Shown piece after piece: positions 34,221-51,751 of a DNA stretch of 51,953 bases. This stretch comes from Synergistaceae bacterium (GTDB taxonomy: Bacteria; Synergistota; Synergistia; Synergistales; Synergistaceae). How positions within the stretch are numbered: position 1 is the stretch's first letter; each line of letters opens with the position of its first letter. Below the pieces are notes generated by a model that saw nothing but the letters and a program-made list of their open reading frames with translations, had not been told where the DNA came from and ran no database searches. Made by a program: the position numbers and the translations under genes. Location of the stretch: assembly GCA_031268885.1 (NCBI GenBank), contig JAIRWR010000074.1, positions 1 to 51,953 of the forward strand. Reading direction: 5' to 3'.

Positions 34221-35312
34221 ATGAATGAATTTCGACTGAATACTGTCACCGCAGTAACCGATATCGCGGTTGTCGATTTATTTTGTGGCGTGGGAGGATT
34301 GACTCATGGTTTACGCCTTGCTGGATTGAATGTCGTTGCGGGAATTGACATAGATGAATCTTGTGAATTTCCATATGAACACAATAACAGAGACGTGAAA
34401 TTCATAAAAGCAGATGTTGCGGAAATATCTGAAGACGCAATATCTGAATGTTACAAAGGATACAGTTTTAAGGTATTGGTAGGGTGTGCCCCTTGTCAAC
34501 CATTCTCGTCATACACATTTAGGTATCGAAAAAATGGGCACACGAGTGAAAAATGGGAATTACTTGATTCTTTCAATGACAAAGTGCAAATAATAAAGCC
34601 ACATATTGTTTCTATGGAGAATGTTCCTGAATTAGCAAAAGAAAAAATTTTCCACCGCTTTATCAAATCGTTAGAAAACTCTGGATATAAGGTAAGTTAT
34701 TCTTTGGTCTTCTGCCCTGACTATGGTGTCCCTCAGAATCGGAAGCGTCTTGTACTATTAGCATCACGCTTAGGGCAAATAAATATGATTAAACCGGAGT
34801 TAACTCCGGAAAATTATAGAACGGTGAAACAAACGATAGGTTGCCTTCCTGAAATCAAGTCAGGTGAGCAGGATGAGCGGGATCCTTTGCATTGGTCGGC
34901 ACAACTGAACGATACCAACCTAAAACGCATAAGGCAATCAAAGCAAGGTGGTACTTGGCGCGACTGGAGCGAAGACTTACGGTTACCGTGCCACCGAAAA
35001 GAAAGCGGGAAAACGTATGCATCCATTTATGGTAGGATGTCGTGGGATAAACCTGCGCCAACAATCACGACTCAATTTTACGGATACGGCAACGGAAGAT
35101 TTGGACACCCTGAGCAGGACAGGGCATTATCGTTGAGAGAAGGCGCAATGTTACAGTCTTTCCCCGAAAACTATGCATTTATAGAACCTGGAAAAACCTT
35201 TAATCGCCACCATGTCGGTACTCATATAGGTAACGCTGTTCCGGTATTGTTAGGCAAAGCTATAGGCAAAAGCATCACTGCTCATTTAACGGAGGTTAGG
35301 GACAATGATTAA
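34221..35312 (+). CDS. DNA cytosine-5 methyltransferase
   Basis: Methylates cytosine in a specific DNA site with SAM. The 363 residues show the m5C motifs in order: I VVDLFCGVGGLTHGL, IV GCAPCQPFSSY with the catalytic Cys, VI SMENVPEL, VIII PQNRKRLVLLA, IX-region REGAMLQSFPENY and X HIGNAVPVLLGKAIG. A full-length Dcm-type enzyme with AAGGAGGG before its ATG. It overlaps the DUF262 gene by eight bases. The block is AT-richer than the core genes around it, suggesting transfer. No partner restriction nuclease of a common family is adjacent. Confidence 0.94.
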   Translation: MNEFRLNTVTAVTDIAVVDLFCGVGGLTHGLRLAGLNVVAGIDIDESCEFPYEHNNRDVKFIKADVAEISEDAISECYKGYSFKVLVGCAPCQPFSSYTFRYRKNGHTSEKWELLDSFNDKVQIIKPHIVSMENVPELAKEKIFHRFIKSLENSGYKVSYSLVFCPDYGVPQNRKRLVLLASRLGQINMIKPELTPENYRTVKQTIGCLPEIKSGEQDERDPLHWSAQLNDTNLKRIRQSKQGGTWRDWSEDLRLPCHRKESGKTYASIYGRMSWDKPAPTITTQFYGYGNGRFGHPEQDRALSLREGAMLQSFPENYAFIEPGKTFNRHHVGTHIGNAVPVLLGKAIGKSITAHLTEVRDND

Positions 35313-36393
35313 GACCAAGAAAACCGGTATCTCTCCTGAGAAAAAAAAAGAGGCCGAAGCCCAAATTATTGAGCAAAGCCGAATCATAAAATATGATACG
35401 GTCAATTACGCAATAGATTATTTGGTGGAAAAATTCAATCCGAGCAAAGAAACGCCGGATGAGGGCAATCATGATAGCAGACTATTTGTTATCCCCGATT
35501 ATCAAAGGAACGCAGTTTGGGACGACAATGACCGTTCGGCATTTATTGAGTCTCTGTTACTTGGACTGCCCATTCCGTTCCTGTTTTTTTGCGAGCGCGA
35601 GAACGGTATCATAGAAATCGTTGATGGTGTCCAACGTGTTACAACGCTCAACTCTTTCGTCAACAATAATTTCGTCCTTAAGAATTTGTCAAAGTTGACT
35701 GCTTTAAATGGATTCACATTCGAAAATTTTTCGGAAGCGACCCAACGCAAGTTCCGTAACAAGACGCTTCGCATCATTCTTCTTGATAGCGACACCCCTG
35801 TAGAATCACGTAAAGACTTGTTCAGCCGTGTAAACAAGAGTGGTCGAAAAATCAACGACGCGGAATTTCGGCGCGGAACTTTCCCAGGGAAATTAACGCA
35901 ATTTATAGAAAAGTGTAGCAAGGATGAGTTGTTCATGAGTCTTTGCCCACTGAATGATAAAAAAGTCGAAAGATATGCACGATTCGAGCTTGTGCTAAGG
36001 TTCTTTGCGTTTGCACACGACTACAAGAATTTCAAGCACGAGGTTGCCCCGTTTCTCGACCTCTTCTTAGAGCGTAATCAAAATACGTTTGATGAGAACT
36101 CATACAAATCCGAGTTCGACAGAATGTGCAAATTTGTGCAGAAATATTTTGAGTTAGGTTTTGCCCGCAGCAAGCAGTCGGTTCCCAATGTCCGTTTTGA
36201 AGCCATATCTGTGGGAGTTGCTCTAGCATTGCGTGAAAATCCCGACATCACCACCACCACGGATTGTGTCAACACGTGGTTGGATTCCGACAAGTTTAAG
36301 GAATTGACTACTTCAGATTCAAGCAATAATCCTGGTAGATTAGAGGCTCGCGTCGAATATGTCCGAGACTGTTTGTTAGGGAGACGACAATGA
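35305..36393 (+). CDS. DUF262-domain protein (GmrS/ParB-like fold)
   Basis: DUF262 proteins occur in modification-dependent restriction (GmrSD) and other defence systems. The 362 residues show the two core motifs: IPDYQRNAVWDDNDRSAF with ESLLLGLPIPFLFF, and EIVDGVQRVTTLNSFV. GRKINDAEFRRGTF follows. The C-terminal half is helical and lacks the DUF1524 HNH nuclease of GmrD, so this is the S-type half only. It overlaps the methyltransferase by eight bases and the HEPN gene by four. Confidence 0.85.
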   Translation: MIKTKKTGISPEKKKEAEAQIIEQSRIIKYDTVNYAIDYLVEKFNPSKETPDEGNHDSRLFVIPDYQRNAVWDDNDRSAFIESLLLGLPIPFLFFCERENGIIEIVDGVQRVTTLNSFVNNNFVLKNLSKLTALNGFTFENFSEATQRKFRNKTLRIILLDSDTPVESRKDLFSRVNKSGRKINDAEFRRGTFPGKLTQFIEKCSKDELFMSLCPLNDKKVERYARFELVLRFFAFAHDYKNFKHEVAPFLDLFLERNQNTFDENSYKSEFDRMCKFVQKYFELGFARSKQSVPNVRFEAISVGVALALRENPDITTTTDCVNTWLDSDKFKELTTSDSSNNPGRLEARVEYVRDCLLGRRQ

Positions 36394-36860
36394 ACAGAAC
36401 AATTGAGTTGTTTAATGAGCGAAAATCAGAGATAGAGTTTTATTTCTCTATATTAGTCGAAATTGCCGCACCGAACAGTACAATCAAGATGGTAGATAAT
36501 CATCGTTTCGCGAGGATACTCAAGTCAAATTTCTTGCTTATGCTTTATAACCTGATTGAGTCGTGTATTCGGAGCGGCTTCGAGGATATTTATAGCGCCG
36601 TAAAAGAAAGCGGTAACCCATATCCAAATGTAGCCGAAGAGTTACGCGACATTTGGTCAAATTATGAAATTTCAAAAGCTCACAAAGACACGGCAAATCG
36701 CCAAACCTACGGGAAGCGAGTCAAAGAGATAATAGAGCAGGTCATTTCCAATAATCCGCTCGTAATTACTCGCGAGGCCTTAGATATCAGCGGAAATCTT
36801 GATGCGCGTCAAATTAGGACATTGCTTGACGTGCATAAAATAACATTTTATGTAAAATAA
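36390..36860 (+). CDS. MAE_28990/MAE_18760-like HEPN protein
   Basis: A 156-residue all-helical protein resembling the MAE_28990 HEPN family (LNERKSEIEFYF-type start, here FNERKSEIEFYFSIL; then ILKSNFLLMLYNLIESCIRSG and AEELRDIWSNYE, shown by landmarks). HEPN proteins are often RNases of toxin or abortive-infection systems. I do not see a clear Rx4-6H motif after the R of ESCIRSGFEDIY, so catalysis is not assured. It is translationally coupled (ATGA) to the DUF262 gene. Confidence 0.75.
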   Translation: MNRTIELFNERKSEIEFYFSILVEIAAPNSTIKMVDNHRFARILKSNFLLMLYNLIESCIRSGFEDIYSAVKESGNPYPNVAEELRDIWSNYEISKAHKDTANRQTYGKRVKEIIEQVISNNPLVITREALDISGNLDARQIRTLLDVHKITFYVK

Positions 36861-44949: not shown

Positions 44950-45365
44950 ATCGGCAACTCTCCCTCTTAAAAATGTCGTGATACCAATTCGCGATCAATA
45001 GGCTGTCTCTGACGCGGATGAATGACCGCGCGAATCGGTTTTCACGCTTCATACCTCACGCTTCATGCCCTTGATTTCAAATCGGCGTGAAACGGCTGGG
45101 ACGTTCCCGACCGATTCACACACAGACGTAAGTATAAGACAATTCTCATCTTTTTGCGTTCGATTAAGGCTCGTCAAAGCGATTTGTGGATGCGCCAAAC
45201 CGCCTGACGCATGGCATGACTGAATTCGCGGTTTCACGCGTGAATCGGGCGCGTGACCGGCAGCGGTTCTTCGCTGTGCATGGCGCGTCCGCCTGTATCT
45301 CTGTCGGCTGGATTACGTTCGGGTTGCTGGTATAATGAGTTAATTTGAAAAAGAGGAGAAGCGTC
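44950..45365. other. Intergenic region with TTTCACGC-type repeats and a promoter
   Basis: About 415 bases. Copies of TTCACGC or its complement recur (near 45046, 45057, 45085), and a perfect 12-base palindrome TTCACGCGTGAA lies at 45233-45244. An extended -10 (TGGTATAAT, TATAAT at 45331-45336) lies 30 bases before the FtsZ-like start. No other gene is supported. Confidence 0.5.
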
Positions 45366-46220
45366 ATGGAACCGTCTATAGACTGGAAAGAACCGCCGGA
45401 AACCAGAGAAAAATTTCTGGTTGTCGGAGCTGGGGAGAGCGGAAGCGGATTCTTGGAGCGGATTAAAAAAGATACGGTCGAGTCCGTAGAGTTTTTCGCG
45501 GCGCGTGACCTTGGAGAAGTTACACAAGCGCGGCTCGGCGACGCGGATATGCTCTTCGTTATCGCCAATATGGAAGAAGAGGGGGATGCGGATATCGCAT
45601 CGGCTGCCGCGAAGAGAGCGAAGAAGATGGGAAGACTGACTGTCGGCGTTGTCGAGATGCCCGACTCTGGCTCATCGACCGCAAGAGAGAACGCCGCTAA
45701 AATCAGTGAAAGTGTGGATGCCCTGTTTACTGTTGCCAGCGGTGAGACTCAGGGCGAAGACATTGGACAGATTATCTTCGGAATTGTAGATCTCGCGAAT
45801 TCAGCGGGCCGTTCTATTATCGCGGTTGACTTTGCGGACGTTAGAGCAGCGTTGGAGGATGCGAAGACGGCAATCTTCACCGTCGGCGCCGCGGAAGGAG
45901 AGAACAGGGCGGCCGAAGCGGCGGAAGCGGCATTGAAACGCGTGATGCTCCCCCTTGAGGCGAAAGCCCAAAGACTTATTCTTCTGTTTCGTATACATGG
46001 GGAATCCAGGGTAACGGAGCTGCAAGAAGCCGCGCTTATAATCCGCGATAGACTCGGATGCGAGAACTCAGCGCTTATCTTCGGACACATTATAGATGAT
46101 AAAGCCGGAGACAGTATGCGAATCTCAATCCTCGCCGCTGAATTCATTCCAGATATATCATTATCCAGCACTTGTTTTTTTCCGTTACAGCACAGTGGAC
46201 AAACGCGTCAGACGCCGTGA
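45366..46220 (+). CDS. Divergent FtsZ-like protein without GTP-binding signature
   Basis: Full-length tubulin/FtsZ-fold homologue of 284 residues. Its order matches FtsZ: an N-terminal LVVGAGESGSGFLERI, a DADMLFVIANM strand, KKMGRLTVGVVEMP, DFADVRAAL (T7 loop), IFTVGAAEGENRAAEAAEAAL, and a C-terminal domain with SALIFGHIIDD and RISILAAEF. The GGGTGTG nucleotide loop reads MEEEGDADIAS and the first glycine loop is degraded. The T7 Asn is lost but DFAD remains. No FtsZ C-terminal peptide is seen. AGGAG lies seven bases before the ATG. It is probably a regulator or cap of the true FtsZ. Confidence 0.78.
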   Translation: MEPSIDWKEPPETREKFLVVGAGESGSGFLERIKKDTVESVEFFAARDLGEVTQARLGDADMLFVIANMEEEGDADIASAAAKRAKKMGRLTVGVVEMPDSGSSTARENAAKISESVDALFTVASGETQGEDIGQIIFGIVDLANSAGRSIIAVDFADVRAALEDAKTAIFTVGAAEGENRAAEAAEAALKRVMLPLEAKAQRLILLFRIHGESRVTELQEAALIIRDRLGCENSALIFGHIIDDKAGDSMRISILAAEFIPDISLSSTCFFPLQHSGQTRQTP

Positions 46221-46330: not shown

Positions 46331-47329
46331 ATGGCACGAGCTGATTTATTAATTCGGTTGGTTCAATCCGGCATAAGGAATGATAAAGTGGCGTTTCGAA
46401 AGGTCGTTGAATCCATTATTGCCGAAGAACGTAGCAAACAACACAAAGTGTTAGCTGAGCAACTCGCGGGCTTGCTCAGCGTTGCTCCATTTGAACAACC
46501 TGTCCATAACGGGAATGTGGTTCTTGCCGAATCTCAACTTTGCAATCTGTTTTACGAAATCACTCCAAAGAAAAAATTCAGCGATCTTGTGCTGTCAAAT
46601 GATACGTTCAAAATTTGCAATAGTCTAGTTCAGGAACAACACCGTGCGGAGCTTTTGCGTTCATACAACATGGAACCTCGAAACCGCGTGCTCCTGATAG
46701 GTCCTCCTGGAAATGGGAAAACATCACTTGTAGAGGCACTTGCGGAGGCACTGGTCGTTCCTCTTCTTGTTGTTCGGTATGAAAGCATTGTGGGGTCTTA
46801 TCTTGGCGACACCGCCAGCCGCCTGAAAAAGTTGTTTGAATATGCCACTGCGCGGAAATGTGTCTTGTTTTTTGACGAGTTTGAAACGCTCGGTAAAGAA
46901 CGCGGAGACCCCCATGAAACTGGAGAAATTAAGCGTGTCGTAAGTTCGCTTCTTTTGCAAATAGACAATTTGCCAAGTCATGTTATGGTTATTGGCGCGA
47001 CGAACCACGGTGAATTACTCGACCGAGCGGTCTGGCGGCGTTTCCAAATCCGCATGAATCTGCCGCTGCCAACAAAAGCGGCATTGATAGAGTGGTTTGA
47101 AAAGTTCGAGCGGCGTATCAACACTTCGCTAAATTACAGCCCATCTGAATTGGCGAAAAAACTTTACGGCTCCAACTTCGCTGAAGCGGAAGAGTTCGCG
47201 GTCTCGGCTTATCGCCAATATATCCTTGAACAACCCAACGCGAATATGCGGGAAATAGTCTCTCAAGCGTTGAAAGAATGGGATTCGCGCTCGGTCTCCA
47301 TAAAGTCAGGGGAGGCGCCCAATGCCTGA
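46331..47329 (+). CDS. ietA: IetA-like AAA ATPase
   Basis: AAA protein of the SpoVK/FtsH-like type, 332 residues. Walker A GPPGNGKTSLVEALAE, Walker B VLFFDEFETLGKERGD, sensor 1 VIGATNHGELLD and the arginine finger area RAVWRRFQIRMNLPLP are visible. A helical N-terminal region of about 100 residues precedes them. GAGGAA lies before the ATG. It overlaps the subtilase gene by eight bases. Paired with it, this matches the IetAS antiphage and plasmid-stability module. Confidence 0.85.
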   Translation: MARADLLIRLVQSGIRNDKVAFRKVVESIIAEERSKQHKVLAEQLAGLLSVAPFEQPVHNGNVVLAESQLCNLFYEITPKKKFSDLVLSNDTFKICNSLVQEQHRAELLRSYNMEPRNRVLLIGPPGNGKTSLVEALAEALVVPLLVVRYESIVGSYLGDTASRLKKLFEYATARKCVLFFDEFETLGKERGDPHETGEIKRVVSSLLLQIDNLPSHVMVIGATNHGELLDRAVWRRFQIRMNLPLPTKAALIEWFEKFERRINTSLNYSPSELAKKLYGSNFAEAEEFAVSAYRQYILEQPNANMREIVSQALKEWDSRSVSIKSGEAPNA

Positions 47330-49892
47330 ACGTCCTCTGCTTATTTTCCCGACGCCGGTATCCGTCGATAGAGCAAAACTTGGCGGAGGCGGGGGAAAAC
47401 CTCACGTTCCAACTGCCGCCCGTCAATGGGAACGCTTGTCTCCCAAATTTGAACAATTGCGTAACACATTTATTCAAGTTCAACCCAATGTCGATGGCAT
47501 TGAACCGGAAAGTGTTTTGGTCATTGAAACAATCGGCGCGATCGAGAAATTTGTCAATGCCGTCAAAAAAATTGAGGGTTTTGAATGGCTCGGCGAGGTA
47601 GACGAAGAAGAACTTGCTCCTGACGATGATTTCTTCGATGAAAGCCAACGCGACAAACTTTTGTCCGGACGATTGTATTGGGTATGGAGTAATCAACAAG
47701 CACTTAAACAAATGTTATCGCTGTGGGAACACTACAAAGATAATTCCCAATTGGCCTTTGAACGCGGACTTACTAAATTCCGAGATGTCTTTCTCCAACT
47801 CAGAGATATTCGTCGTTGGGACACACGAGATCGGTTAGAGGAGACAGGCGTCCTTGACGCATGGCGGGAAGACTTGCAAGATGAACAATTGGCAAACACT
47901 TTCATTCATTGTGAAATTGAACTCTGGTTCCGCGACGATCAGCAAAAAAGAACACACGCGCAATGGAACGTCGCATCAAGGATCGAACAAATCGGAGGGC
48001 AAATTGTTTCACAAACGACAATTCCAGAAATCTCGTATCACGCTTTACTTGCGACGTTGCCACGAAACGAAATACAAAACGTCCTCAACGACAACCGTGA
48101 GGCCGCGTTTCTTAATTGCGACAGCGTGCGGTTTTTCCGTCCGTGCGGACAAATGGTTTTCGGTAAGGAACCCGCCGCCGGAGAAATTGAAGATGTCGGC
48201 GTAAACGTTAATCTCCCTTTGCCAATCGGACAGCCAACGATCGCTTTATTTGACGGGCAACCGCTTGAAAACCATTCCTTGCTGTCCGGCCGCTTGATTG
48301 TTGACGACCCGGATAATTACGGTTCTGACTATGCCGCCAACGCGAGAAAACATGGAACAGCAATAGCATCCTTGATTATCCAAGGCGATTTAAATGACGG
48401 ACAATCCCCTTTGGCGCGTCCGCTTTATGTTCGCCCCATAATGCGTCCGCAACAAACTGTGAATGGCGGTTGGGCAGAACATGTCCCCGAAAATGTTCTT
48501 TTCACGGATTTGCTACATCGAAGTGTACGGCGATTGTTTGAATTGGAAGACGGTCAGACTCCTGTCGCGTCAAGCGTCAGAATCATTAATTTATCCATCG
48601 GAGACCCCGCGCGACAATTTGTCAACGCCATGAGTCCGGCGGCAAAACTGCTCGATTGGCTCAGCGAGAAATACAACGTGCTTTTCATCGTCAGCGCGGG
48701 CAATCACCCTGTGGCAATCCGAATCAACCAAACAGCGCAAACATTTAATAGCATGTCGCCAGACGAGCGAGAAGCGGAAGTTGTCAAAGCGTTATACGCA
48801 AACAGGCGAAACTGCCGCCTTCTTGCGCCTGCGGAAACTATCAATGGATTAACCGCCGGCGCGTTGCATTCCGATTCATCAACACTGACCAACACTCCAA
48901 ATCGCGTTGATCTTCTTGCCCATACCTTCTTACCAAGTCCTATTTCAGCATTTGGCTGTGGATATCGGCGTTCCATCAAACCTGACTTGATTTTTAGCGG
49001 CGGACGCCAATTATACCAAGAACCTATTTCAAGAAATGCGCCAGTAAAATTATTGCCTTCATATGTGATAATAGCTCCCGGCAACAAGACGGCTGTGCCA
49101 GGTTCAAGTGGGCAGGCTAATAGTACATCATTTTCACGCGGAACAAGCAACGCCGCCGCACTGATTAGCCGTTCTGCCGGCATCTGTTATGACTCTCTAC
49201 TTCAACTGCTTGCAGACCAACCCCGAGAAGTGGGTTTAGGGAATAGTGACGTGCCATTGTTAAAAGCGATGCTCGTTCACAGTTGTTCATGGGGCGAGGC
49301 AAAATACAGAATGGGACAAATCTTTTCCGATACAGACACCGACATTAAGAAAATAGCCGACCGTTGGCTTGGTTATGGTACACCGGATATCCAGCGTGTC
49401 TTGGAATGCGCAAGACAACGCGCTACCGTGTTAGGGTTTGGACAACTAACCGACGGACAGGCGCATCTCTTTAGTTTGCCTTTACCGCCTTCACTCGGAG
49501 CACAACGCATCAGACGCCGCTTGACCGTTACGTTGGCTTGGTTCTCGCGAATTGTGCCATACACGCAAAAATACCGTGAATCAAGTTTGTGGTTTGAAGT
49601 TCTCAATAACCGCTTGGCTTCAGACCGCGCGGAAAATGATTGGCAAACCGTCAAACGCGGCACAGTTCAACACGAAATTTTTGAAGGTGAAAGAGCGGAA
49701 CCCATCAGCGATGGAGATGTTATTCAAATCAAAGTCAATTGTCGAAACGATGCCAAGAGAATCACAAATCCCGTCCAGTATGGGCTTGTCGTTTCCTTGG
49801 AAGTTGCGAGAGGCCAAGGAACCGACATCGCCATTTACGATGAAATTAGAGACCGTATTATGACACCTATTCAAGAAAGGGCAATAACATGA
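47322..49892 (+). CDS. ietS: IetS-like subtilisin-family (S8) serine protease
   Basis: 856-residue S8 peptidase with no signal peptide, so cytoplasmic. The catalytic triad is visible as Asp311 in IALFDGQP, His344 in KHGTAIASLI and Ser609 in GTSNAAALISR, with the oxyanion Asn in VSAGNHP. The first 300 residues are a separate helical domain and the last 180 form a beta-rich C-terminal domain. Protease and AAA partner are translationally coupled, as in IetAS. Its stop overlaps a broken DUF1156 start (ATGA). Confidence 0.85.
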   Translation: MPERPLLIFPTPVSVDRAKLGGGGGKPHVPTAARQWERLSPKFEQLRNTFIQVQPNVDGIEPESVLVIETIGAIEKFVNAVKKIEGFEWLGEVDEEELAPDDDFFDESQRDKLLSGRLYWVWSNQQALKQMLSLWEHYKDNSQLAFERGLTKFRDVFLQLRDIRRWDTRDRLEETGVLDAWREDLQDEQLANTFIHCEIELWFRDDQQKRTHAQWNVASRIEQIGGQIVSQTTIPEISYHALLATLPRNEIQNVLNDNREAAFLNCDSVRFFRPCGQMVFGKEPAAGEIEDVGVNVNLPLPIGQPTIALFDGQPLENHSLLSGRLIVDDPDNYGSDYAANARKHGTAIASLIIQGDLNDGQSPLARPLYVRPIMRPQQTVNGGWAEHVPENVLFTDLLHRSVRRLFELEDGQTPVASSVRIINLSIGDPARQFVNAMSPAAKLLDWLSEKYNVLFIVSAGNHPVAIRINQTAQTFNSMSPDEREAEVVKALYANRRNCRLLAPAETINGLTAGALHSDSSTLTNTPNRVDLLAHTFLPSPISAFGCGYRRSIKPDLIFSGGRQLYQEPISRNAPVKLLPSYVIIAPGNKTAVPGSSGQANSTSFSRGTSNAAALISRSAGICYDSLLQLLADQPREVGLGNSDVPLLKAMLVHSCSWGEAKYRMGQIFSDTDTDIKKIADRWLGYGTPDIQRVLECARQRATVLGFGQLTDGQAHLFSLPLPPSLGAQRIRRRLTVTLAWFSRIVPYTQKYRESSLWFEVLNNRLASDRAENDWQTVKRGTVQHEIFEGERAEPISDGDVIQIKVNCRNDAKRITNPVQYGLVVSLEVARGQGTDIAIYDEIRDRIMTPIQERAIT

Positions 49893-50434
49893 CCTATAAC
49901 AAAAAACTCATATTTGCCGGGGGGCGGGTCCATCCCTCTCGAAGCCCAGCAGCTTGGGCTGGAAGCTCACGCCAGTGATTTGAATCCTGTAGTCGTGGTA
50001 ATCAATAAAGCAATGATAAAGATACCGCCGAAATTCGCCGACCGGCCGCAGGTGAATCCGGAGGCGCGGTCGCGCGTCGCGAGCGATGATGAGTGGCGTG
50101 GCTGCTGACGCGGGAGGAAATCACCGGCAAGATTGAACATGGCGGCATGATTATCTGGCTATTGACCCAGCAGCTCACCCGCGCATTAGAGAAGGACGGC
50201 ATAACCGGCGCGGCAAAGATAGTCTCGGACATCTTCTCCTCCGGGCCGGAACACGCCAAGGCGTTGGCGTACCGGCTGTTACAGATAGCGGAGCGTAAAG
50301 GGTGGGCGCAGGAGGCGTGCGCCTACAACTCGCTCGTCATCGCGTGGCTGGAGGTGCGGGGCAGAGTAGCTGAACTTCTGTCTCGCGCGGCCAACGGTAA
50401 ACAGTTATCGCTGTTTGATGATACGGATGATTAA
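49889..50434 (+). pseudogene. Wreck of a DUF1156 adenine-specific DNA methylase gene
   Basis: The family start MTYNKKLI is present in an ATG overlapping the ietS stop. It is joined directly to [12 protein letters not shown], the SAM motif that normally lies several hundred residues later, and one extra G in the G-run shifts the frame. A second frame carries [16 protein letters not shown] and [10 protein letters not shown] third (50093-50434) carries the C-terminus GPEHAKALAYRLLQIAERKG and WLEVRGRVAELL. At least two large deletions and frame changes make this non-functional. Confidence 0.82.
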
Positions 50435-50458: not shown

Positions 50459-51751
50459 ATGGCAAAAATAGAAGGGTTTCGCGTCAAGAATTTCAGGACA
50501 CTAAAAGATGTCCTGCTTGGCAGGTTATGGAATTGGCAGGAATCAGACCCTTTGTCTCCATTGACGGCTGTCATCGGTAAAAATGGAGTTGGCAAGAGTA
50601 CGTTGTTTGACGCATTCGGTTTTCTGGCGGATTGCCTGAAAGTGGGAGTCGAAGAAGCGTGCGATCTTCGCGGTCGCGGCGGGTTCGGCAGAATCCGGTC
50701 CCAAGGCTCAGGTGAGCCAATCGAATTCGAAGTATATTACAAAGAGGACGGCAACGCTCGCTCGATTACCTACGAGTTGTCGATCGACCTCGGTGATGAC
50801 GAACGGCCGTATGTTCTTAAGGAACGTCTGAGGCAACGCCGAAAAGGACAGAAGCGTGGCTGGCCGTTTTCTTTTTTAGTCTTGAATAGAGGAAAAGGTG
50901 TTGTATGGAAAGGCGAGACGGGCGGACATCAGATTGACGAAACCCAAGGAGATGTTGACTTTTGCAATCTGATGGACTCTCTAAAATCCGGCGAGATAAA
51001 AGAGGAATCCACTGAAACTGAAGTGGTTGAGCTGGAAGATATACGCAAGCTGGGGATCGCCACTCTGGGTTCACTGAAACAACACCCGAGAATTTCCGCT
51101 TTCCGCCGTTTTATCGAAGGTTGGTATTTGAGCTACTTTACGCCCGACGCGGCTCGAAGCCTGCCGCTTGCCGGACCTCAGAAGCATCTGAATATTCATG
51201 GGGACAATCTTGGTAATGTTGTACAATTCATGGAACGAGATCACTCTAAACTATTTCAAGGCGTTCTCCAAAGAATCGCCAAAAGAATTCCCGGAATAGA
51301 CAAAATAGGCACTGAAAAGACCAACGACGGAAGACTGTTGCTCCGATTTAACGACAAAGGTTTTCAAGATCCATTTTATGCGCAACAGATGTCCGACGGC
51401 ACGCTGAAAGTATTTGCTTACCTGCTGTTGCTCGAAGATCCTTCTCCGCCGCCATTTTTATGTATCGAAGAACCGGAAAACGGTTTGTATCATAAGCTTC
51501 TGGAAGTCTTGGCTCAAGAGTTTCGCGACCATGCGACCGGGCGTAAGGATGGATCGCAAGTCTTCATTACAACGCATCAACCCTATTTGGTCGACGCGCT
51601 AGACCCATCTGAGGTTTGGATTCTCGAAAAGGAACAGGATGGCTACTCCGCTATCCATCGAGCAAGCAGGAATGATATTGTGAGGAACCTGGTTGCCGAA
51701 GGTCTGCCTTTGGGCGGGTTATGGTACAGCGATTATTTGGATGCGAGGTGA
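50459..51751 (+). CDS. AAA family (SMC/OLD-like, AAA_21) ATPase
   Basis: 430-residue ATPase. It starts IEGFRVKNFRTLKDVLL, with Walker A GKNGVGKSTLFDAFGFL, a split coiled-coil-like middle, an ABC-like signature QQMSDGTLKVFAYLLLL and Walker B PFLCIEEPENGL, then QVFITTHQP. AGGAGG lies nine bases upstream. The next gene starts four bases after its stop. In defence loci such ATPases pair with TOPRIM or DUF4276/DUF4435 partners, as in PARIS-like systems. Confidence 0.9.
   Translation: MAKIEGFRVKNFRTLKDVLLGRLWNWQESDPLSPLTAVIGKNGVGKSTLFDAFGFLADCLKVGVEEACDLRGRGGFGRIRSQGSGEPIEFEVYYKEDGNARSITYELSIDLGDDERPYVLKERLRQRRKGQKRGWPFSFLVLNRGKGVVWKGETGGHQIDETQGDVDFCNLMDSLKSGEIKEESTETEVVELEDIRKLGIATLGSLKQHPRISAFRRFIEGWYLSYFTPDAARSLPLAGPQKHLNIHGDNLGNVVQFMERDHSKLFQGVLQRIAKRIPGIDKIGTEKTNDGRLLLRFNDKGFQDPFYAQQMSDGTLKVFAYLLLLEDPSPPPFLCIEEPENGLYHKLLEVLAQEFRDHATGRKDGSQVFITTHQPYLVDALDPSEVWILEKEQDGYSAIHRASRNDIVRNLVAEGLPLGGLWYSDYLDAR

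Follow-up and report, generated by a model that had tools for sequence, protein, structure and literature searches.

An FtsZ paralogue with a dismantled GTP face beside defence genes of a Synergistaceae bacterium, a possible FtsZ-derived pseudo-subunit

What use can a bacterium have for an FtsZ-like protein in which the face for GTP binding has been taken apart? The question is raised by a gene at 45366–46220 (forward strand) of the window, the stretch of 51,953 nucleotides of Synergistaceae DNA analysed here, which encodes a protein of 284 residues, P0001. The initial annotation had taken it for an FtsZ paralogue alignable with FtsZ from end to end. The assignment as an FtsZ paralogue is borne out by matches to Pfam FtsZ_C (1.3e-9, above the curated cut-off; 45870–46142, residues 169–259, including the bottom-face elements H10 and S9), to the NCBI FtsZ equivalog model TIGR00065 (4.4e-20; 72 bits, where the cut-off is 295), and to FtsZ chains of the PDB, the only significant matches in that sequence search (best 3.8e-20). 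In Pfam, no match to the Tubulin/FtsZ GTPase-domain model was obtained. The end-to-end alignment stands for residues ~13–260 and fails at the termini, in three deleted blocks and at the tail peptide, which is missing. AlphaFold with an input alignment gave a model of pLDDT 80.8 and pTM 0.78, a fold that is partly guided because this alignment consisted of 34 canonical FtsZ proteins; the prediction from the single sequence was weak (pLDDT 56). The superposition on FtsZ that had been proposed as a check succeeded, the best PDB match of the model in Foldseek being S. aureus FtsZ (TM 0.77, rmsd 2.6 Å). By sequence similarity and FtsZ fold together, P0001 belongs to the FtsZ superfamily.

P0001 shares with canonical FtsZ (TIGR00065; Pfam Tubulin plus FtsZ_C) the fold, the H7-T7-C-domain part and the two T7 Asp residues, but lacks T4, T3, T6 and the tail peptide. 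In place of GGGTGTG and the complete nucleotide face of canonical FtsZ, T4 (45573–45593, residues 70–76) is EEEGDAD, the alignment placing MEEEGDAD against MGGGTGTG, and the T1 glycine loop (45426–45449, residues 21–28) is GAGESGSG against GVGGGGNN with three glycines remaining, both as had been read by eye. About 39 residues of T2/H2-T3-H3 (blocks of 15 and 24) and about 21 residues of T5/T6/H6, including most of T6, are absent. The C-terminal linker and tail peptide of canonical FtsZ (DIPxxxR-type in host FtsZ1) are likewise absent, P0001 stopping at residue 284. The T7 (synergy) loop, AGRSIIAVDFAD (45804–45839, residues 147–158), aligns with canonical Synergistota FtsZ as AGRSIIAVDFADV against PG--TINVDFADV. 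It had been noticed that DFAD is kept and the preceding Asn lost; NVDFADV is indeed replaced by AVDFADV, both catalytic Asp being present, and a two-residue insertion, R149-S150, is added to this, so that the canonical NxDxxD is AxDxxD with a longer loop.

The selectivity of these losses was estimated by aligning 90 canonical Synergistota FtsZ and sorting the positions conserved in at least 80% of them by structural element, with element boundaries set by motif, following the general FtsZ structure. Faces were assigned after the contacts in the S. aureus filament, H10 of the top subunit with the H6-H7 loop of the bottom subunit and likewise S9 with T5, H8 with T3, and T7 with H1-H2 (PMC8936486). 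P0001 keeps 14 of 63 conserved positions of the top (GTP) face, 16 of 24 of the N-domain core, and 12 of 18 of the bottom face (T7/H8/H10/S9); for the remaining C-domain positions the count is 12 of 26. Retention in the core (p=0.0003) and in the bottom face (p=0.001) exceeds that in the top face, and we therefore regard the fold as kept and the GTP face as dismantled, in line with the annotated loss of GTP binding and partial retention of the T7 face, an asymmetry shared by the GTP-face-less relatives described below. Bottom face and rest of the C-domain did not differ significantly (12/18 versus 12/26, p=0.23), and a preference for the bottom face inside the C-domain is only a trend. These observations and the predicted fold altogether indicate that P0001 is a folded FtsZ body with the nucleotide (top) face dismantled and much of the bottom face kept, and neither GTP binding nor polymerisation is expected of it.

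Could the gene be a relic, that is, a duplicated or acquired ftsZ that has lost its function and is drifting at the boundary of an island? Its occurrence in one genome only, its very long branch in the tree, its island position and its atypical GC3 (see below for each) all favour this reading. On the other hand, the frame of 284 codons is intact and the deletions relative to FtsZ are all in-frame. When ftsZ was drifted neutrally in simulation to 42% identity, at least one stop arose in 200 of 200 runs (mean 5.8), against 0 stops in the gene itself; core elements are also retained far above the GTP face, and a promoter-like -10 and a Shine-Dalgarno sequence are in place. A relic is thus the least probable of the readings weighed here.

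The extended -10 claimed upstream of the gene was found as TGGTATAAT at 45328–45336 (forward strand), lacking a good -35; it is the sole TGNTATAAT on the forward strand of the window. The Shine-Dalgarno sequence AGGAG (45354–45358, forward strand) precedes the ATG by 7 nt. The picture of a long upstream region with repeats was only partly sustained: the 416-bp gap contains one 14-bp tandem duplication (45042–45069) and two 12-nt inverted pairs, but these repeats are weak, and ~200 bp at the start of the gap can still be aligned with the leader that precedes the divergent aminotransferase gene in another genome of the genus and are therefore not specific to the ftsZ-like gene. A regulatory RNA in this leader was considered and dropped, Rfam giving no match.

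The ftsZ-like gene is located between the divergent class-IV aminotransferase gene and a pair of genes for the IetAS defence system, all of the following being on the forward strand: ietA (AAA ATPase, 46331–47329, PADLOC IetA 2.2e-145) and ietS (S8 subtilase, 47322–49892, PADLOC IetS 1058 bits), followed by a HEC-01A-type AAA defence candidate (50459–51751, PADLOC 6.6e-192). In the same-genus genome (G001), a gene of the acetokinase family lies beside the aminotransferase gene where the window has the ftsZ-like gene, and the intergenic likeness between the two is clear only to ~45155. GC3 is 0.53 for the ftsZ-like gene, 0.70–0.82 for the flanking host genes, and 0.44–0.47 for IetAS. The segment, which carries the defence genes, is best read as inserted or exchanged, and the ftsZ-like gene may have arrived with them. 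A role of the FtsZ-like protein as a partner of IetAS was rejected, because IetA homologues elsewhere have no adjoining FtsZ-like gene in the ~1.5 kb of flank checked. The window holds a further defence-type group at 34221–36860 (C5 cytosine methylase, GmrSD/NsnA-like gene, HEPN-domain gene) and, at 50093–50434, a fragment that matches the C-terminus of the defence protein HmaB and is apparently a remnant.

The host genome also carries two canonical FtsZ, the first after ftsA and split across two contigs (C69 and C19), the second on contig C100. Two canonical FtsZ are present in most genomes of this family, and one in most other Synergistota families. The conservation across Synergistota proposed as a check on the annotation was not found: among 187 other Synergistota genomes, including 52 others of the same family, there is no orthologue of P0001, only paralogous cases, and scans of GTDB and of viral contigs for exact peptides of P0001 gave none. 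Phage and plasmid matches were discarded as orthologues, their similarity being at the level of ordinary FtsZ. In the tree P0001 is placed beside f3 FtsZ, on a very long branch. AU tests did not reject its placement with all non-f3 sequences, with same-genus FtsZ1 or with the degenerate f3 set, and among the placements tested only that as sister to L063 was disfavoured (p=0.016); since several placements are thus left, no horizontal origin is claimed from the tree. L063 (3913–4815, genome G055) is the third FtsZ of its genome, independent and GTP-degenerate, which makes G055 the second such genome in the family of the window; the T7 of L063 resembles that of P0001 in having lost the Asn and kept both Asp.

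Paralogous cases occur also in genus g24, of another Synergistota family: 19 of its 43 genomes have one or more additional FtsZ-derived proteins that lack a GTP face. In the other genera of the g24 family the rule is one full FtsZ-like locus. The g24 proteins are near-full-length (258–268 aa), ~215 aa, minimal (~140–170 aa, little beyond H7-T7-C-domain), fused to ankyrin repeats (620–970 aa) or, in one case (L250), fused to a nuclease. Identity of the GTP-face-less relatives to P0001 is about 25–33% over the aligned part. Their pairwise dN/dS is 0.10–0.45, values that concern the relatives, P0001 having no orthologue for a measure of its own, and by which the g24 proteins are judged to be under purifying selection. 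In an alignment of 22 GTP-face-less Synergistota proteins, P0001 included, whose rows are related and not independent, retention of the T7 residues Asn, Asp and Asp is 82%, 91% and 95%, and that of the intervening Phe and Ala 27% and 14%; the same 22 keep H10 Glu in 91% and S9 Trp-Gly-His in 95/91/95%. In 21 of these 22 related rows the bottom face is better retained than the remainder of the C-domain. T7 is present also in minimal H7-T7-C-domain forms (L097, L099), in the ankyrin fusion L145 and in the nuclease fusion L250. A GTP-face-less FtsZ thus suggests itself as a recurrent, reusable 'half-FtsZ' module in Synergistota, with a putative role. P0001 resembles these proteins (L058, L059, L063, L093, L097, L145, L250 and others) in the lost GTP face and the kept T7 Asp, and they usually keep the C-domain; it differs from them in that their T7 Asn is mostly kept and that several belong to a nuclease/WYL cassette.

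This conserved cassette (L058:4082–7079, L131:2064–7000, L132, L133, L134, L144, L145:1568–6606, L146 and L250, with membership varying by genome) combines a GTP-face-less FtsZ-like protein, alone or ankyrin-fused, with a PDDEXK_4 nuclease and a WYL/WCX regulator. The nuclease, often present, matches PADLOC PDC-S26, a candidate and not a proven system. Of 12 full-length WYL genes with 71% identity or more to the L058 copy, nine directly adjoin a GTP-face-less FtsZ gene, and the other three, cut by contig ends in these fragmented MAG assemblies, are next to ankyrin, nuclease or nothing; WYL copies at most 55% identical are on other contigs. The WYL gene of the cassette is absent from the window's own genome.

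The FtsZ fold of P0001 might also have been repurposed for an unrelated ligand or partner, the retention of the T7 Asp being incidental. The Rossmann-like N-domain core is kept, with GxGxxG in T1, the T7 Asn is gone from a longer loop, and a tail peptide for divisome adaptors is lacking, all of which would suit such a change of use. Bottom-face residues, among them H10 Glu and S9 Gly, are, however, kept as in the other GTP-face-less homologues, and we consider repurposing improbable.

The reading that we prefer, at a probability of about 0.4, is that P0001 is an FtsZ-derived pseudo-subunit that acts in trans on host FtsZ. Its T7 face would be set on the GTP-loaded top face of host FtsZ, either of a free monomer, which would then be barred from the growing end, or at the exposed top, the shrinking end of a filament. 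P0001 would bring the two catalytic Asp and offer the next subunit no GTP face. The T7 Asn, Asp and Asp contact the nucleotide site, K+ and H2 of the partner subunit (PMC8936486). The initial annotation had supposed that P0001 docks and then blocks growth. FtsZ filaments, however, grow at the bottom, T7-exposing end (PMC8936486, PMC11938149), and a bottom-only subunit engages only an exposed GTP face; its possible targets are therefore free monomers and the shrinking end, and it cannot cap the growing end. Of the proposal of a filament cap or destabiliser, the better-kept bottom face stands, a growing-end cap has to be given up, and strong inhibition by a top-less subunit is not expected because FtsZ bottom-interface mutants are reported to be toxic and top-interface mutants not (PMC8936486). 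The latter mutants, the closest experimental analogue of P0001, count in this respect against docking. Docking is uncertain also for P0001 itself, since N208L of S. aureus FtsZ, at the site of the Asn that P0001 has lost, suppresses assembly (PMC8936486). P0001 would thus modulate FtsZ by sequestration or minus-end binding, possibly with activation of the GTPase, and would not be a plus-end cap. As defence genes adjoin, its use may be conditional, for instance when division is paused under phage attack.

The defence context, missed by the initial annotation, is also the ground for a serious rival, which we hold to be possible but doubtful. As a decoy or bait, P0001 would display the T7/H10/S9 face on which inhibitors dock and, unable to polymerise, would soak up or report division inhibitors made by phage or host, the report going to a defence effector; in relatives the bait would be linked to a nuclease. 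SulA, MciZ and MinC all dock on the FtsZ bottom face (PMC11938149); a model places phage Gp0.4 at the synergy-loop face, and Gp0.4 in complex with FtsZ triggers the defence protein CapRel-Ebc (PMC13423816), an example of sensing that lends the bait its weight. Inactive-enzyme decoys and rare FtsZ/tubulin domains have been proposed in conflict systems (PMC7159879), and a bottom-only FtsZ should not harm the host ring. IetAS and HEC-01A adjoin the gene in the window, and the genes of relatives are beside or fused to the PDC-S26 PDDEXK_4 nuclease and the WYL regulator, but a conserved linkage to one system was not found, nor is there an FtsZ-like gene near other IetA homologues (~1.5 kb flank). 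Nothing points to an inhibitor of Synergistota FtsZ, the nuclease fusion L250 is without H10 and S9, minimal C-domain forms lie near cstA and ilvC, away from defence genes, and conservation of the catalytic Asp would be unnecessary for a bait. The lost Asn and the longer loop of P0001 weaken docking and bait alike. Docking is preferred because the relatives keep the partner-contacting Asn/Asp/Asp, even L250 without H10 and S9.

Known regulators offer partial parallels to such a docking subunit. ARC3 of plants, like P0001 degenerate and FtsZ-like, is a plastid protein fused to repeats that regulates the FtsZ ring. MciZ, SulA, MinC and MipZ, none of them homologous to FtsZ, bind at the bottom (plus-end) face; P0001 too is proposed to act by occupying one polymerisation face, but it is itself like the bottom face, and its target would be the top face opposite or these inhibitors themselves. 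FtsZ takes part in phage sensing in the CapRel-Ebc/Gp0.4/FtsZ immune complex, which employs the cell's real FtsZ and not a dedicated paralogue (PMC13423816). A literature search of partial coverage found no paper on GTP-face-less Synergistota FtsZ proteins. In a natural FtsZ that keeps much of the bottom face but no nucleotide face, one half of the polymerisation interface is parted from the other, hitherto done by point mutants, and if P0001 acts on FtsZ it would represent a new type of division regulator built from FtsZ itself; if it serves as bait, bacteria would have in it an analogue of the integrated decoys known from plant immunity. It is conceivable, though rather unlikely, that the GTP-dead FtsZ domains of Synergistota are in general immunity bait or docking modules wired to PDDEXK nuclease, ankyrin and WYL, with P0001 as a stand-alone member. 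The wiring would then be by operon or fusion and the displayed face would be the target of phage division inhibitors, or the module may instead dock on the division ring. The minimal relatives (~140 aa) are small enough for direct testing.

Several observations on individual loci may be added. L250:1060–2907 encodes a degenerate FtsZ N-domain with T7 (YVNIDFDDV) fused to the PDDEXK_4 nuclease, the FtsZ C-domain being lost. Minimal FtsZ C-domain proteins (~140–180 aa) are encoded beside cstA in four genomes (L143, L147, L148, L149), and another type is encoded near ilvC in three (L136, L137, L138). In three genomes (L251, L252, L254) the WYL gene is followed downstream by a gene of ~460 aa without Pfam or PADLOC match. 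In genome G119 a microbial PARG-domain gene is directly upstream of a near-full-length FtsZ-like gene (L093:596–1444), and in four genomes (L131, L144, L145, L146) a flagellin gene is divergent from the FtsZ-like/ankyrin cassette. In genome G109 a shortened FtsZ of 297 aa with T4 GGSTGSG (L256:3018–3911), a possible intermediate, is directly upstream of canonical ftsZ.
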